Below are positions 4,130 through 63,757 of a stretch of 64,000 bases of DNA, piece by piece. The notes beneath the pieces are model-generated. The model searched no databases. It worked only from the letters and a program-made list of their open reading frames with translations, and was not told the origin of the DNA. Within the stretch, counting starts at the first letter, position 1; each line of letters starts with the position of its first letter. Origin of the DNA: Prochlorococcus sp. AH-736-L23 (GTDB taxonomy: Bacteria > Cyanobacteriota > Cyanobacteriia > PCC-6307 > Cyanobiaceae); contig JAOIPS010000001.1 in assembly GCA_028141225.1 (NCBI GenBank), positions 1-64,000 of the forward strand. The letters are read 5' to 3'. The position numbers were made by a program, and so were the translations under genes.

Positions 4130-5823
4130 CAAGATATTGCTATGGGAACTCTCCAGTCACTTCCTAATGATTGACTGCTTAGTTTTAGAATTGGGGGAGC
4201 TTGCTTTCTTTTAAATTCCGCTTTTTTTATGAGGGAGATAATTTTTAAAATTAAATCTTTTTTATAACCATCTTCTTCTAGTTGTTGTAAATCTTTTTTC
4301 TCTTCAATAATTCCTTTAAGAATATTATCTAAAATAGAATAAGGTGGGAGAGAATCAGTATCTAATTGATCAGGACCTAATTCGGCACTTGGAGCTTTCG
4401 TACGTATATTTTCTCCAATAATATCTACATTAGTGTTTAACAAATATGATTTTCTATGGTGAATTGAATCTTCACTATCAAGCCAATTGCATAATTTAAA
4501 AACATTAGTTTTATATAAATCCCCAATTACTGATAATCCCCCATTCATATCACCATAAAGTGTGCAATATCCTACAGCTAGCTCTGATTTATTTCCTGTT
4601 GAAAGTAATAAATGCTTTTCTTGATTTGCTAAAGCCATCAGAAGCGTTCCTCTGATTCTTGATTGAATATTTTGATTTGTTATTTCAGCCATCTCGAATG
4701 ATATGGTATTTTTAAAAGATTCTTCAAAAGAGCTCATCAAATTTTCAATTGGGATGCTATTGAAATTTATTTTTAATCTTCTCGCTAAATCTTTCGCATC
4801 ACTCTTTGAGTGAGATGAGCTCCACTTAGAGGGCATCGAGACGCAATAAATGTTATTACTGCCAAGAGCAGCTGTCGCAATTGCCGAAACTAGTGCTGAA
4901 TCAATGCCACCACTTAGTCCAATTAAAGCTGTTTTAAATCCACATTTTTGAGCATAATCCTTAACACCAAGAACTAATGCATCAAAAATTGATGACATTT
5001 CAGACTTTTCAAATTTATTTTTTTGAGGTTTTGTTTGTTCAATGTCCCATATGGAGAGGTCTTCTGCAAAAGATTTTAATTGCTTAATTTTAGATCCGTT
5101 CTTATCAAGAATAAAACTATTTCCATCAAAAATTAAATTATCATTTGCTCCAATCTGGTTTACATATATCAGTGGTACTTGAAGATATTGAGCAGCAAAA
5201 CTGGAAACTTTGGATCTTATCTCTAACTTTTTGAATGTATATGGGGAGGCCGATAAGTTCACTAAGATATCAACTTTTTTTTTCTTTAAATCAAAAATAG
5301 GATTCTTTTTATGAATTCCTCTACCTTCTATATTTTTATTGACCCATAAATCCTCACATATAGTAAAGCCAAGTCGCCAAATTTTATTGTTAATTTCTTT
5401 TGTTAATACGGAAACTTTTTCTTCTGATCTAAAGTATCTTTTCTCATCAAATACTTCATAGGTGGGTAGAATAATTTTACGAGCAATTATTTTCCACTCA
5501 CCGCGCTCAAGCAATGCAATAGAATTATAAAGATTTGGGAAAAAAGAATCATTTATTATCTCAGCTATCCCTACTGTGATACTCAAGTTTCCATATTTTT
5601 GATTAATATCTGTGGCTAATTGGTCAAGAATTTGATATTGATTTTTGATTAAATTTTTTTTTAGAAGTAGATCGTTTGATGGATATCCCCATAGTGATAA
5701 TTCTGGAGTAAGAACTAAATCTGCAGAAGTTGAGCTAGCTTTCGAAGCAGTACAAAGTATTTTTTTAGCGTTACCCTCTAAATCACCAACTACTGGATTA
5801 ATTTGAGCAAGTAAAAACTTCAT
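4126..5823 (-). CDS. nadE: Glutamine-dependent NAD+ synthetase
   Basis: Final step of NAD biosynthesis: amidation of nicotinate adenine dinucleotide with ATP, using ammonia from glutamine. The N-terminal half is a carbon-nitrogen hydrolase (nitrilase-fold) glutaminase, with a CEDLW motif holding the nucleophilic Cys and an early Glu in LTPELSLWG. The C-terminal half is the synthetase with the PP-loop SGGIDS near residue 302. The 565-residue length is normal for the fused bacterial enzyme. It is coupled with nadD, whose stop overlaps this start, so two consecutive NAD steps sit in one transcript. Confidence 0.97.
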   Translation of the reverse strand: MKFLLAQINPVVGDLEGNAKKILCTASKASSTSADLVLTPELSLWGYPSNDLLLKKNLIKNQYQILDQLATDINQKYGNLSITVGIAEIINDSFFPNLYNSIALLERGEWKIIARKIILPTYEVFDEKRYFRSEEKVSVLTKEINNKIWRLGFTICEDLWVNKNIEGRGIHKKNPIFDLKKKKVDILVNLSASPYTFKKLEIRSKVSSFAAQYLQVPLIYVNQIGANDNLIFDGNSFILDKNGSKIKQLKSFAEDLSIWDIEQTKPQKNKFEKSEMSSIFDALVLGVKDYAQKCGFKTALIGLSGGIDSALVSAIATAALGSNNIYCVSMPSKWSSSHSKSDAKDLARRLKINFNSIPIENLMSSFEESFKNTISFEMAEITNQNIQSRIRGTLLMALANQEKHLLLSTGNKSELAVGYCTLYGDMNGGLSVIGDLYKTNVFKLCNWLDSEDSIHHRKSYLLNTNVDIIGENIRTKAPSAELGPDQLDTDSLPPYSILDNILKGIIEEKKDLQQLEEDGYKKDLILKIISLIKKAEFKRKQAPPILKLSSQSLGSDWRVPIAISC

Positions 5824-6398
5824 TCAACTAATTTAGTGGATTCATATAAATTATTCGTTTTAACAATTTCTATTAATGAAGTTGGTAAATTAGAATAATT
5901 AAAATTTGATCTGAGCTTAGAACTTGAAATGTTTGGGATTTTTATGGTTGAAATCTTAAACTTCACTTTATAAGTTTCTAACATTTTAAGAGTATTTGAT
6001 TCAACAGGGTATCCCTCTCTTAAAATTACTAAAAAACTAACCTCATCAGTAATTTTATCAAAATTTTTCCAATAGAAAATATCTTTAACTAAATCGCTCC
6101 CAATGACAAAATCTAAATTATTTAATTCATAAATTCTTTTACATTTTTTAATTGATTCTACTGCCCATTGGCTACTAATACTTTGATTAAATAAAATTTT
6201 AGGATTATCTAAATCTTCAATAAGAGTTTTTAATAATTGACTACGAATTGATATATCCTCTTTGTGATTTTTGTTGGGGTTGTTACTAACATAACCAATT
6301 GTCAAAGCATATATTTTGGATAATTCTTCAAGTATTTTTTTATGTCCAATGGTAGGTGGATCTGCACTGGTACCAAATAATGCAATTCTTTTTCCCAT
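5820..6398 (-). CDS. nadD: Nicotinate-nucleotide adenylyltransferase
   Basis: Adenylylates nicotinate mononucleotide to the deamido-NAD used by the neighbouring nadE product. The nucleotidyltransferase N-terminus IALFGTSADPPTIGHKKIL carries the TxxPPxxGH signature, and a C-terminal ISSSKLRSN matches the family's ISSTxIR motif. Length (192 residues) is typical. It overlaps nadE by four bases and lies 7 bases below the GTPase gene, giving a tight minus-strand operon. Confidence 0.95.
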   Translation of the reverse strand: MGKRIALFGTSADPPTIGHKKILEELSKIYALTIGYVSNNPNKNHKEDISIRSQLLKTLIEDLDNPKILFNQSISSQWAVESIKKCKRIYELNNLDFVIGSDLVKDIFYWKNFDKITDEVSFLVILREGYPVESNTLKMLETYKVKFKISTIKIPNISSSKLRSNFNYSNLPTSLIEIVKTNNLYESTKLVE

Positions 6399-20413: not shown

Positions 20414-20872
20414 TTATATTTTTTCTAGTAGTATTTTTGCAATATCATTTCTTACAGGTAATATAGATAACCTATTTCCTTTTTTTACGACTAATAACTC
20501 ATCCTCATCAAATAAAATCTTTAATTCAGGCAAACTTAAAATCTTATCTGATTTAAATTTATATTCTACCTTTACACAATCCCACCTCGGATTATCAGGT
20601 TTCGATTTTGGATCAAAATATTTTGAATCTTGATCAAATTGAGTAGGATCAACAATATTTAGATCTATTACCTCCATAAGTCCCACAATACCTGGGGGTT
20701 TACAATTCGAATGATAGAAAAAAACTTTATCTCCTTTATTCATTTTTCTCATAAAATTTCGAGCCTGATAATTTCTTATTCCATCCCATAAAGTTACACC
20801 TTCATTTTTTAAAGTATCTATGCTGTAAGCATCAGGCTCACTTTTCATTAGCCAGTAATTAATGTCAGTCAT
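20414..20872 (-). CDS. EVE domain protein
   Basis: A 152-residue PUA-like EVE domain. YWLMKSEPDAYSID, TLWDGIRNYQARNFMRKM, GDKVFFYHSNCKPPGIVGL and NPRWDCVKVEY are the standard blocks. EVE domains read modified bases in DNA or RNA and are often near restriction systems; this one is the stand-alone form widespread in bacteria. Part of its 5' coding end recurs exactly at 39434-39455 (see findings). Confidence 0.93.
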   Translation of the reverse strand: MTDINYWLMKSEPDAYSIDTLKNEGVTLWDGIRNYQARNFMRKMNKGDKVFFYHSNCKPPGIVGLMEVIDLNIVDPTQFDQDSKYFDPKSKPDNPRWDCVKVEYKFKSDKILSLPELKILFDEDELLVVKKGNRLSILPVRNDIAKILLEKI

Positions 20873-21180: not shown

Positions 21181-21423
21181 TTAAGCTGCTTCTGGAGCAA
21201 ATATTCTGCTGTTCTCTCTCCAGTATCTACATCCTTTAATGAGGTGATCTCCTGGAGGAATAAGCTTTTGATGAAATGGACAGGTAAGGATGGTGACACA
21301 AGAACTTGTCGTGCTGTACCTGAAGTGATTGCAAGTAATACAAATCTTCCGTAGTTTTCTTACTAATATTTCGTCCTCTAGGTAATCCCATTCCTGCCAG
21401 TCCTCCATAGCTATATAGTACAA
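21181..21423 (-). CDS. Small cysteine-rich hypothetical protein
   Basis: An 80-residue protein with a probable metal-binding cluster: CITCNHFRY (Cys-x2-Cys), then CVTILTCPFHQK and KGCRYW, giving about five Cys and two His. It resembles small zinc-ribbon proteins, but I do not recognise the family. Base composition is less AT-rich than the surrounding core. It is followed upstream by another short minus-strand ORF 46 bases away, and the pair may be an acquired unit. Confidence 0.6.
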   Translation of the reverse strand: MYYIAMEDWQEWDYLEDEILVRKLRKICITCNHFRYSTTSSCVTILTCPFHQKLIPPGDHLIKGCRYWRENSRIFAPEAA

Positions 21424-21469: not shown

Positions 21470-21790
21470 TTATTTACTCTCCAAAAGGATAGCTCTTGCT
21501 CTATTCCATCTATGCTCAAAAGACTCTTCTCTGCTTGATTCTTCTATCTGATTGCCATACTCATCTACACCTTTGTAGTAATCGTCTAGAACGTACTCTA
21601 CAAAGGGTTCAAGGGTATTCCTACTCTTGGATCTAAGAAGCTTTGTGAACGCTTCCATCGACCTCTCAAGCTTGTCTCCCTGAAGGTTCTGTATCCACAT
21701 TGAACCCTGATGATGATAGAGAAGAATCTTTACTACTTCGTCGTAACTGAGCCATGGATGAGCTTCTTTTATTCGTTTTGTGCTGTTCAT
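21470..21790 (-). CDS. Hypothetical protein
   Basis: A 106-residue, helix-rich, charged soluble protein (HPWLSYDEVVKILLYHHQG, LDDYYKGVDEYGNQIEE, FEHRWNRARAILLE). No cysteines, membrane segments or known motif. It is co-directional with the cysteine-rich gene and sits beside the repeat-rich stretch at 21.8-22.3 kb. Composition is less AT-rich than the core genes, suggesting transfer. Function is unknown. Confidence 0.6.
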   Translation of the reverse strand: MNSTKRIKEAHPWLSYDEVVKILLYHHQGSMWIQNLQGDKLERSMEAFTKLLRSKSRNTLEPFVEYVLDDYYKGVDEYGNQIEESSREESFEHRWNRARAILLESK

Positions 21791-21924
21791 TTTTATTGTT
21801 GATTGTTTGTATTTTTAACCGGGTATGGGGGAAATATCATGATCGCTTTATTAAATAGAGCTAAGAGAAATTTTTTTCATTTTCTACTCATCGTTTCATC
21901 TACCTCCTCTATTCTCTCTACAGT

Positions 21925-21980
21925 TGAATAGTGATGTTCAGGATTAACCAACCTCGAATAATAAGTAACATCACTATTCA
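21925..21980. repeat. 14-bp perfect inverted repeat with 28-base loop
   Basis: TGAATAGTGATGTT (21925-21938) is the exact reverse complement of AACATCACTATTCA (21967-21980). No T-run follows, so it is not a typical terminator; it could be a protein-binding site or a structured RNA. Confidence 0.75.
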
Positions 21981-22002
21981 TTTAATTAGTACTTTTGTAG
22001 AT

Positions 22003-22051
22003 AGTTAGTGGTAGTAGTTAGAGGTGATATCTTTAAGCGATATCCAGCTAA
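22003..22051 (+). repeat. 49-base direct repeat, copy 1
   Basis: Starts AGTTAGTGGTAGTA and ends GATATCCAGCTAA. It matches copy 2 at 22148-22196 with about five differences and lies 145 bases away from it. Each copy contains two GATATC palindromes about 7 bases apart. Confidence 0.8.
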
Positions 22052-22147
22052 CAGTACTTTAAAGGGAGATTTTATTCTCCTTCCCTCTAATAGGGTGCCA
22101 TCGTTCTTAAACCCAGTTATAGTAAAACTTTTTAATTCTTGTTAAAG

Positions 22148-22196
22148 AGTTAGTGGTAGTACTTAGAAGTGATATCTTTCAGGGATATCCAGCTAA
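22148..22196 (+). repeat. 49-base direct repeat, copy 2
   Basis: Second copy of the repeat at 22003-22051, in the same orientation. The sequence between the copies (GGGAGATTTTATTCTCC and neighbours) also forms a small hairpin. Confidence 0.8.
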
Positions 22197-22240
22197 GCTT
22201 GTTGTATTAGAGAAGACTTGTTGTATTTATAATCTTCCCC

Positions 22241-22341
22241 CATTAGCCCGTGATCGGTCACTTCTCCTTATAAGCCCGCCATTACTCTCCCCTTATTAAC
22301 CCGTGATTACTCCTTTTTCCTTATAAGCCCGCCATTGCTAT
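22241..22341 (+). repeat. Two-unit tandem repeat, 53-base period
   Basis: Units begin ATTAGCCCGTGAT (22241) and ATTAACCCGTGAT (22294). They share the exact 18-base core CCTTATAAGCCCGCCATT at 22265-22282 and 22318-22335. It abuts the 3' end of the nuclease-helicase gene. Confidence 0.75.
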
Positions 22342-22343
22342 CT

Positions 22344-24317
22344 CTAAATAACATCGATTCCAATTTCCCTTAAATAATTCCAAGTAGGGTCATACTTTTC
22401 ACTGTCTCTTGTTTTATCTAATGGATCTCCCTCCGGAACCACAATAATCATTCCTTGACGTGCTCTTGTTAAAAGAACTCTATAAGCATTTAATTTATTT
22501 TTTTGAGCTTCTTGATCCATGATGTTATTCCATTTAGTTCCCACAAAAGATTTATATAGCCAATCGGTTGAAGTCTTGATTAAATCTCCATCCCAAATCA
22601 ATCCTGCCCAATCAAGTTCTAAACCCTGTACCTGAAATTCTGTAGCCGCATCTTCTAATGCAAGGCTCGATCTGACATCGTTATTTTCTTTTAGAAACCA
22701 ACTTGCCACATTGTCCTTTGTTATTGATCCAGAGAATATTCCAAGGGGTTTTAATCTACTTGCTCCGGATGAGGTTAATAATCCATATCTCTCTGATCCC
22801 CTTGCATGATTTCTCAACCAATGTTTTGCTTTTATGAGTGAGCGTGTGATTTTAATTGGATATGAATCTTTTAGTTCTCCTAATAAATTCTTGGTTTCTG
22901 AAATATTTCCTTCAAGCAAATTAGATATGTATTTAGCTACTTTTTCTGATCTGAAAGATCTTATAGAAATACTTAAATGTAGATTATCTCTTCTAAAGAG
23001 TCTCCCATTTAATTGATCAAGATTAAATGAAGGTAAATAATATTTTGAATCTAATGCATTAGATATCCAAACTTTCCAATCTGGAAAATTATCTCTTAAC
23101 GCTTTAAGCCATTCCTCCATACCTCCTTCTCCTTTATTTATTTCCTGCCCTCCTCCAACTAAACAAACTATTGATGTCCAACCAGTGTGGCGATCCATTG
23201 ATTGAATTAAAAATTCAGGTTCCGAAAAATTGAAGTCAGGCTTATTTTTATTCCTTTTCATAAAACTCTTTGTTTTATCTAAATCGTAAGCTCTTTGCGC
23301 TTCGTCAAAAATTACTATTCTTTCAGTTGGAGGAGAATTATTTTCTAGACATTCATCTCTAAAATGATGAACATTTTGTATGAAAGATTTGACCTCTCTA
23401 AGAGCTTCGGCTTTCGTTTTGTTTTTATTATTTTTAGAAGCGTCTATGGCTAAAGACTCACTAAGCACACTCACTAGAGGAACATTTCCTGTTAAGAAAA
23501 CTGCATGCTCCTCTTCATTTTTATCTTTCATTCTTCTTTCACAAGCAAGATTTAAACCTGCCAAGGTTTTACCAGCACCAGGTATTCCGGTTAAGAGAAT
23601 GATAGATTTTTCATTATTTCTTTTTGAATTATCAATAATCTCATTTAGCAGAATTGAAGTCTGACCAAGATTATCTGAACCAGCTTCGTTTCTACTAATG
23701 TCAGAAACACCATGTCCTTTATAAAGAACTTTGCTCGCCTCAATAATAGTTGGGGTGGGTAGATAAGAGCTATTGATCCAATCTGAAAATATAATCTCTT
23801 TTTGAATGTTCGATTGACTTAAAACATCATCAATCAAATTTTGCAAATTAAATTTATTAGCCAGAAGACAACTATTTAATATCCCATCCTCAGAAAAATT
23901 AATGCTGTTTGAAGTGTCTTTTGCTTCAGTAGAAACAAGAATTGGAACTATATTTGCATCATGACTTCCTGCGTGAAAATTTTTAAGATCTAAGGCATAA
24001 TCAATTGCTTGAACTTTATCTTGATTGAAATAATTTTCAGAACCAACTTTAAATTCAATCGCAAAAATTGTGTTTTTTATGATCAATATATTGTCGACTC
24101 TTTTCCCAATCCTAGGGATTTTAAATTCGAATAGAATATATCCCTCTTCAAAGTTAGGAAGAATTTCTTTTAATAAATCAATCTGATCCTGCCATGCATC
24201 TCTTTGCGTTATCTCTACTGATCCTTCTTGAAACTTAGTTAATTCTCCTAAAACCTCATCATTTGATTTGGTTAGAAATTCTTGTATGGAAGATTGAAAA
24301 CCAGATCTTTTCGGCAT
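22344..24317 (-). CDS. PD-(D/E)XK-like nuclease fused to DUF2075/SF1 helicase
   Basis: A 657-residue two-part protein. The N-terminal region (about 55-120) has RVDNILIIKNTIFAIEFKVG, which fits the D...ExK core of the PD-(D/E)XK nuclease fold, followed by a Gln/Tyr-rich helix. From about residue 235 comes an SF1-type ATPase: Walker A TGIPGAGKTLAGL, Walker B VIFDEAQRAYD, and the C-terminal helicase motif RVLLTRARQGMIIVVPEGD, which together fit DUF2075. Such nuclease-helicase fusions are often antiviral. It is co-directional and contiguous with the dienelactone hydrolase gene, and a repeat tract follows it. A role in phage defence is an inference. Confidence 0.8.
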   Translation of the reverse strand: MPKRSGFQSSIQEFLTKSNDEVLGELTKFQEGSVEITQRDAWQDQIDLLKEILPNFEEGYILFEFKIPRIGKRVDNILIIKNTIFAIEFKVGSENYFNQDKVQAIDYALDLKNFHAGSHDANIVPILVSTEAKDTSNSINFSEDGILNSCLLANKFNLQNLIDDVLSQSNIQKEIIFSDWINSSYLPTPTIIEASKVLYKGHGVSDISRNEAGSDNLGQTSILLNEIIDNSKRNNEKSIILLTGIPGAGKTLAGLNLACERRMKDKNEEEHAVFLTGNVPLVSVLSESLAIDASKNNKNKTKAEALREVKSFIQNVHHFRDECLENNSPPTERIVIFDEAQRAYDLDKTKSFMKRNKNKPDFNFSEPEFLIQSMDRHTGWTSIVCLVGGGQEINKGEGGMEEWLKALRDNFPDWKVWISNALDSKYYLPSFNLDQLNGRLFRRDNLHLSISIRSFRSEKVAKYISNLLEGNISETKNLLGELKDSYPIKITRSLIKAKHWLRNHARGSERYGLLTSSGASRLKPLGIFSGSITKDNVASWFLKENNDVRSSLALEDAATEFQVQGLELDWAGLIWDGDLIKTSTDWLYKSFVGTKWNNIMDQEAQKNKLNAYRVLLTRARQGMIIVVPEGDPLDKTRDSEKYDPTWNYLREIGIDVI

Positions 24318-29896: not shown

Positions 29897-29945
29897 GTGA
29901 GTATAAGGGGTACACATGACGGTTTTACATCATTAAATGTGACTT
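29897..29945 (+). repeat. Dispersed repeat X, copy 1
   Basis: About 70 percent similar to 39567-39618 by hand alignment, sharing GTGAG, AGGGG, TACATCAT and TGACTT in order; similarity continues weakly downstream. Both copies are in the plus orientation. It lies between the thermonuclease and the Nit1C cluster. Confidence 0.5.
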
Positions 29946-29964
29946 TAATATTTCTGTTTAAATT

Positions 29965-36177: not shown

Positions 36178-36255
36178 CGCTAAAAGTTTGGAGAGAAAAT
36201 TATTCTTTGAGATCACTGTTATAACTAGACGGGCTCACTTTTCTTTAGCTAAAAA
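36178..36255 (+). repeat. Dispersed repeat Y, copy 1
   Basis: Starts CGCTAAAAGTTTGGA, continues with CTAGACGGGCTCACTTTTC, and matches copy 2 at 39366-39455 at most positions apart from an 11-base insertion in copy 2. Its end resembles the EVE gene's 5' coding sequence. It begins 13 bases after the last Nit1C gene. Confidence 0.65.
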
Positions 36256-36416
36256 TTTTCTTCAGTCGTATCAAAGGCTTTGGAGTAATTTATCTGCTAG
36301 ATTTTTGCTAGGATCAGAATCTTTTATATTTTTATTATCCATCAAAGTTTCTAATTAGCGAAGTGATGATTGGTATAGGGTGCAAGCGAATTATCAGCTA
36401 CTCACACTTGAGCTTT

Positions 36417-39367: not shown

Positions 39368-39455
39368 CTAAAAGTTTGGATAAAGTTTGGATAAAAATTA
39401 CGATTCCTTGAAATCCCAGTAATAGCTAGACGCGCTCACTTTTCATTAGCCAGTA
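39366..39455 (+). repeat. Dispersed repeat Y, copy 2
   Basis: Second copy of 36178-36255 with an extra TTTGGATAAAG unit. Its last 22 bases (39434-39455) are identical to 20836-20857, inside the start of the EVE gene. Confidence 0.7.
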
Positions 39456-39566: not shown

Positions 39567-39618
39567 GTGAGGGTAGTTAGGGGGTCCACGCGATCTTAGT
39601 ACATCATAAAGATGACTT
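39567..39618 (+). repeat. Dispersed repeat X, copy 2
   Basis: Partner of 29897-29945, same orientation, with TACATCAT and TGACTT conserved. It is 110 bases after repeat Y copy 2. Confidence 0.5.
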
Positions 39619-39999
39619 CATAAATTTCTATAAAATCATTTAGGCTCATAGTATTTATTTTTTAAGTATCTGTCACTACTTGATTTAACTTTTTATGTTT
39701 TGCATAAATCTTTTATGAGGAGCCACTTCACTTATTTTAAATCAACTATTAAATTAGATTTTTTCAAAATCTTTTTATAAATTAAATCTTAAATTATGTA
39801 GAGAAACTTATGCAGAAGTCGTTTTTATATAAGTTATATAAATCAAAATAAGTAGTCTTTTTTACCAATTAAATATAGCTGTTGTTAAATAAATATATTT
39901 GTCCTTGAAAAGCTCCTAAAAAATACTTTTTCTTGAAATAAACATTGACAAGACATTTATTAAAAAAACTTTTATAAAACATTAACTTCTTTTATAGAT

Positions 40000-43874: not shown

Positions 43875-45059
43875 TTAACCTTTAGATAAATTTCTTCCTT
43901 TCCAGGTCCAACCATTTCCGGTATGTGTTTTATAAATCGAAAGCAAACTAATATAAAATACAATTATCCCTCCTATGCCATTTAAATACCAATATTTTAA
44001 TGGGATTTCATATTTCACTTTTAACCAAATTCTTTTAAAAAGATAAGTGCATAAGGCCAGAAAAGAGAATAAAGTTGTGCATAAAATCTTTAAAGAATAA
44101 TTATTAAATAAAATAATTAAAGAGATAAAAAATAATAACCAAGGAAGAGTAAAATTTAAAAATACAAATACTGATCCAGAAATTGATCTGAGAAGATCTT
44201 TCTCTAAACCTAAAAACCAGTTTTTACTCCATCCCTCAATTAGGGAATTGAAATCTTGATACATATTTAATGAAATATCTTTAATAGCTATTAAAAAATT
44301 TAATTTTAAATTTCTATTTTTGATCTTTTTGGCCAGAGCTATATCTTCAACTACTTCATCAAAAGTGCCTTCATGTCCGCCAATCAATTCATAGGATTCT
44401 TTCTTAAAAAGCATAAAAGGGCCAGCTGCAAATGATGTATTAGTTCTACTATCGTTAGTATCAGAAATGGGGAATCCTATCATTAATAAGCTTGTCATAA
44501 TAGGTTGTACCATCCACTCTGCTAAGCAATTGCAATTTACTTTTGGCGCTAGAGATAATAGATCAATATTATCTTCGCGTGCTTTAAATAGAGCATTATA
44601 AATACAATTTTTTCCTAAAATTACATCTGCATCAATAAAAAGTATCCATTCAGAATTTATCTTCCTAGAACCTACATAACAGGGCCAATTTTTACCAACC
44701 CAATTTTTTTCTTCAGGTCTTTTTCCTGATGAAATGATTTCCAATTCTTTTGAATTTTTAAATATTGCTTTTTTTAAGTTTTTTGCTTCTAAAAAAGTTT
44801 TGTCAGTACTTAAATCATCTACTACTAATATTTTAAAATTGACACTGGGTCTTTTAATTTCACTTAATGATTTTAAGCACTTGGCTATATTTAATTCCTC
44901 ATTATAAGCAGGGATAATTATTGTAAGACTTGTTTCTATAGGTTTTTCAGAATTAATATTTTGAAGAAAAGGTGCATTTCTAAATCTGTATCTCTCAATA
45001 ATGAAGGTTCCTAAAGCTGATATAAAAGTAAAAAGTGAAAGCAATAGTAAAAAGAACAT
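43875..45059 (-). CDS. Glycosyltransferase family 2, membrane-associated
   Basis: 394 residues. An N-terminal membrane anchor, then a GT2 domain from about residue 45 (TIIIPAYNEELNIAKCLKSL), the DDLSTD and LFIDADVILG metal/donor motifs (DxD-type), FDEVVEDIALAKKI, and three to four C-terminal membrane helices from about residue 285. Topology resembles HpnB-like or carotenoid-associated glycosyltransferases. The acceptor cannot be read from sequence. A 35-residue membrane micro-ORF precedes it on the same strand. Confidence 0.85.
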   Translation of the reverse strand: MFFLLLLSLFTFISALGTFIIERYRFRNAPFLQNINSEKPIETSLTIIIPAYNEELNIAKCLKSLSEIKRPSVNFKILVVDDLSTDKTFLEAKNLKKAIFKNSKELEIISSGKRPEEKNWVGKNWPCYVGSRKINSEWILFIDADVILGKNCIYNALFKAREDNIDLLSLAPKVNCNCLAEWMVQPIMTSLLMIGFPISDTNDSRTNTSFAAGPFMLFKKESYELIGGHEGTFDEVVEDIALAKKIKNRNLKLNFLIAIKDISLNMYQDFNSLIEGWSKNWFLGLEKDLLRSISGSVFVFLNFTLPWLLFFISLIILFNNYSLKILCTTLFSFLALCTYLFKRIWLKVKYEIPLKYWYLNGIGGIIVFYISLLSIYKTHTGNGWTWKGRNLSKG

Positions 45060-63659: not shown

Positions 63660-63757
63660 GTAGTGAATACTACAAAATCGTCCGATCTACCATCTGATAG
63701 ACCGCAGTACGACTCAAGCCATAGGACGGGGACTTGAGCAAGTTCAGGAGCTGCATC
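63660..63757 (+). promoter_or_regulatory. Structured 5' leader with a possible pseudoknot
   Basis: Elements in order: GTAGT-GAAT-ACTAC hairpin (63660-63673); CGTCC (63679-63683) pairing with GGACG (63724-63728); TCTA/TAGA hairpin (63686-63701); CTCAAG (63713-63718) pairing with CTTGAG (63733-63738). The CGTCC/GGACG and CTCAAG/CTTGAG pairings interleave, so they would form an H-type pseudoknot. The AGGAG ribosome site (63746-63750) follows closely. Candidate riboswitch-like leader; class unknown. Confidence 0.5.

Follow-up and report, generated by a model that had tools for sequence, protein, structure and literature searches.

Lateral and generalized transduction from chromosomal pac-like sites occurs in Staphylococcus, and packaging of bacteriophage T7 DNA runs from the right end of the genome toward the left. 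At the T7 concatemer junction, the phage RNA polymerase (RNAP) pauses and, with gp18 and gp19, begins maturation and packaging (PMC3276506), the specificity of which lies near the genome ends. For the T7-like cyanophage Syn5, the RNAP promoter (ATTGGGCACCCGTAA, 15 bp) has been determined experimentally, and the genome has two promoters only, one of them within the RNAP gene (PMC3950665). The terminal repeat of P-SSP7 has also been described (PMC3350473), and qPCR of MED4 loci in P-SSP7 capsids revealed homogeneous mispackaging (PMC7852597). The exchange of hypervariable genomic islands is a long-standing question in Prochlorococcus, whose podoviruses are lytic. Here we describe a tract within a 64,000-nucleotide stretch of Prochlorococcus sp. 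AH-736-L23 DNA (the window; positions 1 to 64,000 of contig JAOIPS010000001.1) that resembles the packaging-initiation region of T7-like cyanophages. Comparisons of sequence give good support to the identity of its promoters, to their phage origin, and to an order and orientation like those found in phages. In the literature searched, which lay outside subscription journals, we found no description of such a promoter array.

The tract (21791-22343) is flanked by two minus-strand genes, orf106 (21470-21790) and one for a Schlafen group-3 helicase (22344-24317). A first-pass annotation, made from the letters of the sequence, had described three repeat structures here, and all three are present above the level of chance. 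The 14-bp inverted repeat is perfect (arms 21925-21938 and 21967-21980), and none of 1000 shuffles of the tract yields one. The reported pair of 49-base repeats proved to be a 54-nt direct repeat (21998-22051 and 22143-22196, 145 nt apart, 89% identity), each copy of which holds two GATATC palindromes as noted (at 22026 and 22039, and at 22171 and 22184). The longest exact repeat in the tract is 19 nt, and even one of 13 nt arises in just 7 of 1000 shuffles. The third structure, a tandem of 53-base period at 22230-22335, does exist (79%), but its basic period is about 25 nt (TRF: period 25, 3.2 copies). The tract was also said to be less AT-rich than usual, and it is (35.3% GC versus 31.2% for the window), but this elevation is only mildly unusual, as 20% of 553-nt windows are equally GC-rich.

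The inverted repeat (21925-21980, minus strand) has no counterpart at the same place in aligned relatives, where that place is occupied by a conserved island segment. This hairpin is local to the AH-736-L23 genome and lies outside the promoter and packaging explanation developed below. Several other readings of the tract were rejected. No Rfam family matched it, and none of the Yfr-series Prochlorococcus non-coding RNAs was identified in a comparison made by published list rather than by sequence. Coding within the 49-base repeats was discarded because the frame is stopped in some relatives (for example, L004). A type III toxin-antitoxin array was entertained on account of the tandem repeats ahead of orf106 and was abandoned when the units were recognised as phage promoters. 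The proposal of attachment sites was not supported in the integrase sense. A tRNA attachment site was rejected as well: no tRNA gene is nearby, and none is present in the 64-kb window or in the 16-kb loci of most relatives.

A search for the repeat cores in cyanophage and Prochlorococcus genomes, as the first-pass annotation had proposed, was decisive for identification. The 49-base repeat is matched in cyanophage P-GSP1 and in 11 IMG/VR contigs, directly 3' of the terL stop codon, and its phage strand is opposite to that written in the annotation. The late-gene order in these phages is the terL stop codon, a unit of 20-24 nt ending in TAATA or TATTA, GGGGAGAG, a hairpin with a AAGGGTGGA loop, the hairpin formed by the 49-base repeat (the R hairpin), and the next gene. 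The corresponding promoter motif occurs exactly twice per genome in P-SSP7, P-SSP2, Syn5 and P-GSP1, once at the RNAP gene and once just after terL. In P-SSP7, P-SSP2 and Syn5, the second copy resides inside the annotated RNAP gene and differs from the post-terL unit by 0-1 mismatches; the second copy in P-GSP1 has 2 mismatches and falls, at the equivalent position, within a long open frame that carries no annotation. The same allele is found at both sites in P-GSP1 and in IMG/VR records G266, G268 and G270, such that the motif recurs with one allele at the RNAP-dependent sites of a single phage. The motif set includes the proven Syn5 promoter, which stands within the RNAP gene of that phage at 4929 and behind terL at 44797.

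Several observations on the phages themselves accompany these results. The RNAP promoter of P-SSP7 is likely CCCCTACGTATACAGGGG (L101, 6855 and 43822), and that of P-SSP2 is likely AGTCACGTATACAGGGG (L104, 13268 and 5440). A published in silico prediction for P-SSP7 is a different sequence from CCCCTACGTATACAGGGG (PMC11475235), and cyanophage promoters of this kind matter for phage biology in their own right. The post-terL promoter in T7-like cyanophages (L088-L100, L105-L196) is followed by the hairpin with the conserved loop AAGGGTGGA, which is AAGTGGTGCT instead in P-SSP10, P-SSP6 and Syn5. The frequency of AAGGGTGGA in our phage comparison set is inflated because the set was partly picked for this motif; the loop was seen independently in isolates picked by TerL protein similarity, including P-SSP2, P-SSP3, P-SSP7, S-CBP1, NATL1A-7 and others.

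In the window, the tandem resolves into four promoter units that start at 22340, 22312, 22287 and 22259 on the minus strand. When scored with a position weight matrix (PWM) from 40 distinct phage alleles, unit 1 (TAGCAATGGCGGGCTTATAAGGAA, 22317-22340) reaches 17.4 bits with 5 of 21 mismatches to the nearest phage allele, and unit 2 (GAGTAATCACGGGTTAATAAGGGG, 22289-22312) reaches 19.3 bits and differs from phage allele L130 at 2 of 21 positions. Unit 3 (GAGTAATGGCGGGCTTATAAGGAG, 22264-22287) scores 12.6 bits (4 of 21 mismatches to the nearest allele), whereas unit 4 (GACCGATCACGGGCTAATGGGGGA, 22236-22259) scores 31.7 bits and departs from phage allele L116 at 1 of 21 positions. A fifth unit on the same strand (GAACGATGGCACCCTATTAGAGGG, 22083-22106) scores 19.0 bits, with 3 of 21 mismatches to its nearest phage allele. 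Like the late promoter that follows terL in T7-like cyanophages (exemplified by Syn5 ATTGGGCACCCGTAA, and equivalent in position to T7 phiOR), the units combine a specificity core, a TAATA or TATA element and a GGGG start. That they are promoters for single-subunit (T7-like) cyanophage RNAPs, read on the minus strand, is well supported by these comparisons; for the window's own allele class, promoter identity is argued from position and architecture.

The two copies of the 54-nt repeat on the minus strand correspond to the phage post-terL hairpin. The copy at 22143-22196 (R2), with the form TTAGCTGGATATC-N7-GATATCACTTCTAA, was assigned by covariation and phage matches, and the second copy at 21998-22051 (R1) by covariation. 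Among 38 distinct sequences from phages and hosts, 97.1% of cells pair. At the outermost position, G-C is found in 17 of these sequences, A-U in 12 and C-G in 5, and the loop is closed by C-G in 35, with A-U, G-C and U-A once each. The covariation score was reached by none of 500 shuffles and, judged by this pattern, the R hairpin is a genuine fold. By-eye alignment to phage terL ends further places a remnant of the terL 3' end at 22107-22138 on the minus strand, where the host sequence ends in AACTGGGTTTAA and the phage proteins end in GKKAYNNWV*. The minus strand of the window preserves the phage order, including the terL remnant, without the AAGGGTGGA loop, a hairpin loop found in none of 21 host loci. 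In sum, the host shares with the phage post-terL region its promoter, its neighbouring hairpin and the terL 3' end, but differs in that the single phage site is replaced by 1-7 tandem units with different specificity cores. The earlier suggestions of structured RNA and of mobile-element remains were each partly borne out, as the 49-base repeats are covarying hairpins that derive from the post-terL region of T7-like cyanophages. The main feature of the tract, an array of promoters for phage RNAPs, had not been suspected under either suggestion.

The R hairpin was found at one locus per genome and nowhere else in the genomes searched, and a dispersed repeat or MITE was rejected because of this confinement. 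A third, diverged hairpin (AATATCC-N7-GGATATT) is present at L034 8221-8293 and at the same place in L035-L037. It is like the post-terL hairpin of the P-SSP7 class, which suggests capture from a second phage class.

Full conservation without rearrangement in all relatives, named in the first-pass annotation as evidence contrary to its reading, was not seen. A DNA search with the tract yielded matches in 21 of 266 genomes of the genus, and both neighbours and copy numbers vary among them. Loci with the R hairpin hold 1-7 promoter units by the PWM, except for the diverged locus L041, in which no unit exceeds the threshold. All of these units are in the sense orientation relative to R and none is antisense; shuffling predicts 0.025 per region. 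Strong PWM matches in 362 kb of host sequence fall nearly all inside arrays. On average, a host unit and the sequenced phage allele closest to it differ at 2.98 of 21 positions, and 44% of the units are within 2 mismatches, versus 5.1 mismatches and 3% for column-resampled phage promoters. Multi-unit arrays each contain 2-6 different specificity cores. At E 0.05, a model of the tandem detected arrays in 27 of the 266 genomes of the genus, roughly 20 of these being strong, and G143 carries a second array. In a sample of the family (380 genomes, 59 genera), a single weak match lay outside the genus (G382:C1:1178891-1178938, minus strand, E 2e-4). No array of the P-SSP7 promoter class ('class B') was found in the host loci, 362 kb in all.

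Besides the array, another phage-like sequence recurs in the islands, just upstream of orf106; it corresponds to the end of phage talC together with the opening bases of the direct terminal repeat. The mature P-SSP7 genome starts with TATACGATGTACACAGG, and the host elements retain the terminal-repeat start TATACGATG. In the window, a diverged copy of this genome-end element, resembling a concatemer junction, occupies 21823-21880 (minus strand) with a weak match (16.8 bits with model R2, E 5e-4). A second element at 39579-39635 (minus strand; 27.6 bits, E 2e-7) is followed by a copy of the 5' end of the EVE-domain gene, and a possible third lies at 29905-29961 (minus strand; 15.8 bits, E 1e-3). 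A profile built solely from 61 distinct phage segments gave 24 host matches, the best at 24.5 bits, compared with a maximum of 6.7 for the reversed control. At E 0.05, a mixed model of 12 host and 4 phage copies, which leans on the host copies, detected such elements in 237 of the 266 genomes, and many of the E values are below 1e-6. Because of this leaning, its ten best further loci were re-tested with the phage-only profile, which recovered all ten at E 0.003 or better and none in shuffled sequence. The element is widespread across the genus (including L248-L257), with one to six copies per genome. The remaining phage-like sequence in the islands consists of psbA/hli-like stretches, isolated promoter-like matches and a few matches that are short and weak.

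As at the concatemer junction of T7 and P-SSP7, the host element keeps the end of talC and the terminal-repeat start, followed by a CCCCC block, and it lies downstream of the promoters and shares their orientation. The promoter-to-genome-end distance is usually about 1.0-1.2 kb in phages and 0.2-3 kb in hosts. Unlike the phage junction, the host element lacks the rest of the terminal repeat, and the GGGGGG half of the next hairpin is usually CCACCCC.

We hypothesize that the tract is a host-borne mimic of the packaging-initiation region of T7-like cyanophages, through which phages transcribe and probably package the island, and we give this explanation about an even chance. The array would provide promoters for phage single-subunit RNAPs of several specificities, followed by the post-terL hairpin twice and then by the genome-end copy. 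In an infected cell, transcription by the polymerase of the infecting phage, whatever its type, would begin at the array and proceed toward the genome-end copy, where terminase may be recruited as in T7, and cutting and packaging of the upstream DNA would begin. If the direction is taken from T7, packaging would start at the genome-end copy, pass through the array and continue into the hypervariable island, and the core genome would be left out. The motif sites, the sense-only units, the closeness to phage alleles, the R hairpin, the terL remnant and the genome-end profile all point toward this explanation. In the window, the island begins at the EVE gene (20.87 kb) and ends near 58.5 kb; its counterpart measures about 13 kb in G012 and about 21-33 kb in three other genomes. 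The overall range of about 13-38 kb is smaller than the 45-kb phage genome. Against the mimic, hosts lack the AAGGGTGGA loop, the window's 21823-21880 copy is weak, and genome-end elements mostly occur without an array (27 genomes with arrays versus 237 with elements). Also, host-type genome-end and EVE-5' probes were both unmatched in an exact-match scan of IMG/VR, from which satellites that lack viral genes may be missing.

The array might alternatively sense infection by means of the phage's own polymerase. Phage RNAP would then express the island genes (orf106, orf75, the EVE gene and those between) in infected cells only, as a defence switch for which several promoter types would cover several phages. 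An array of many specificities in one orientation would suit such a switch, as would the first clear downstream gene, which is co-oriented with the array in most loci, and in the window the array has as its neighbour a candidate defence gene of Schlafen type (PDC-S41, a PADLOC candidate anti-phage defence family; E 4e-262). However, transcription of this gene, which is located upstream, enters the array rather than starting from it; the genes downstream differ among loci, with an antisense arrangement in L024, L025 and L029, and orf106 is broken in many genomes. A switch would also leave unexplained the phage genome-end copy that stands in the same order, and we consider it rather unlikely. 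It is the pausing and packaging logic of T7, applied to the island, that leads us to favour a packaging-initiation mimic over this switch and over the decoy considered next.

As a decoy, the promoters, hairpin and genome-end copies would titrate phage RNA polymerase or terminase and thereby lower phage yield. With two promoters per checked phage genome, 3-7 host promoters would not be negligible early in infection; genome-end copies could distract terminase, and the match to phage alleles suggests selection. A single chromosomal copy would nevertheless face many replicating phage genomes, and a decoy has no need of fixed order and orientation; we consider it improbable. Chance-amplified, neutral debris of past phage recombination would account for the terL 3' remnant, for the varying copy numbers and for arrays that look decayed (L025, L033 and L043). 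We regard it as very improbable, because different alleles stacked in one direction and near real phage alleles are unexpected from a single capture followed by drift, and little other phage genome is retained near the arrays.

A packaging-initiation mimic would have relatives among known mobile systems. Like satellites (PICIs, P4 and PICMIs) and Prochlorococcus tycheposons, the island apparently carries helper-derived packaging and transcription signals on the chromosome. Unlike these elements, it has no tRNA integration site, its signals cover several helper types, and the whole hypervariable island would be cargo; phage-like cargo and integrase, TerS or capsid genes were not noticed near the array in an unsystematic look. 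Staphylococcus transduction likewise involves chromosomal islands packaged from a phage-recognised site, as proposed here, but our proposal differs in its promoter array and in relying on a virulent T7-like phage whose terminal-repeat mechanism is sequence-specific. More tentatively, and with less confidence than for the tract itself, we suggest that Prochlorococcus islands are generally tagged with cyanophage genome ends, that about a tenth of genomes also carry arrays, and that many lytic T7-like phages may transcribe, cut and package islands. If true, this would constitute a dedicated phage-driven gene-exchange system in the most abundant phototroph, and the promoter array would be an updatable record of phage polymerase types. 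An array before a genome-end copy would offer a direct, testable mechanism of exchange, in which phage RNAP and terminase act on the island.

The genes around the array show features of their own. The first gene downstream, orf106, is island-specific and a pseudogene in many relatives. A role as TerS was rejected, as tblastn revealed no phage homologue and a medium-confidence structure model had no match in the PDB. Next are a conserved, co-oriented small Cys-rich ORF (orf75/80; 21181-21423, minus strand) and the EVE-domain gene (20414-20872, minus strand). The first ~40-50 bp of the EVE gene recur as direct repeats through islands (window 20835-20872, 36232-36274 and 39434-39455; also L025-L043), and several interior genome-end-like elements have such a copy ~165 bp later. 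These repeats look att-like and might be insertion scars that record repeated insertions at the EVE gene; we presume that they correspond to the repeated element described for MED4 island 5. Island genes in L026, L028, L031 and L034-L037 start directly after a shared leader like TTGACAATCGATCTAAAATAAGGGGCAATTAGCTCCTTTTTTATG (for example, L028 near 6080-6130), in which a hairpin and T-run resembling a terminator come immediately ahead of the start codon. Elsewhere in the window, a glutamine-II riboswitch is present at 63676-63738 on the plus strand (Rfam RF01704, 58.4 bits).
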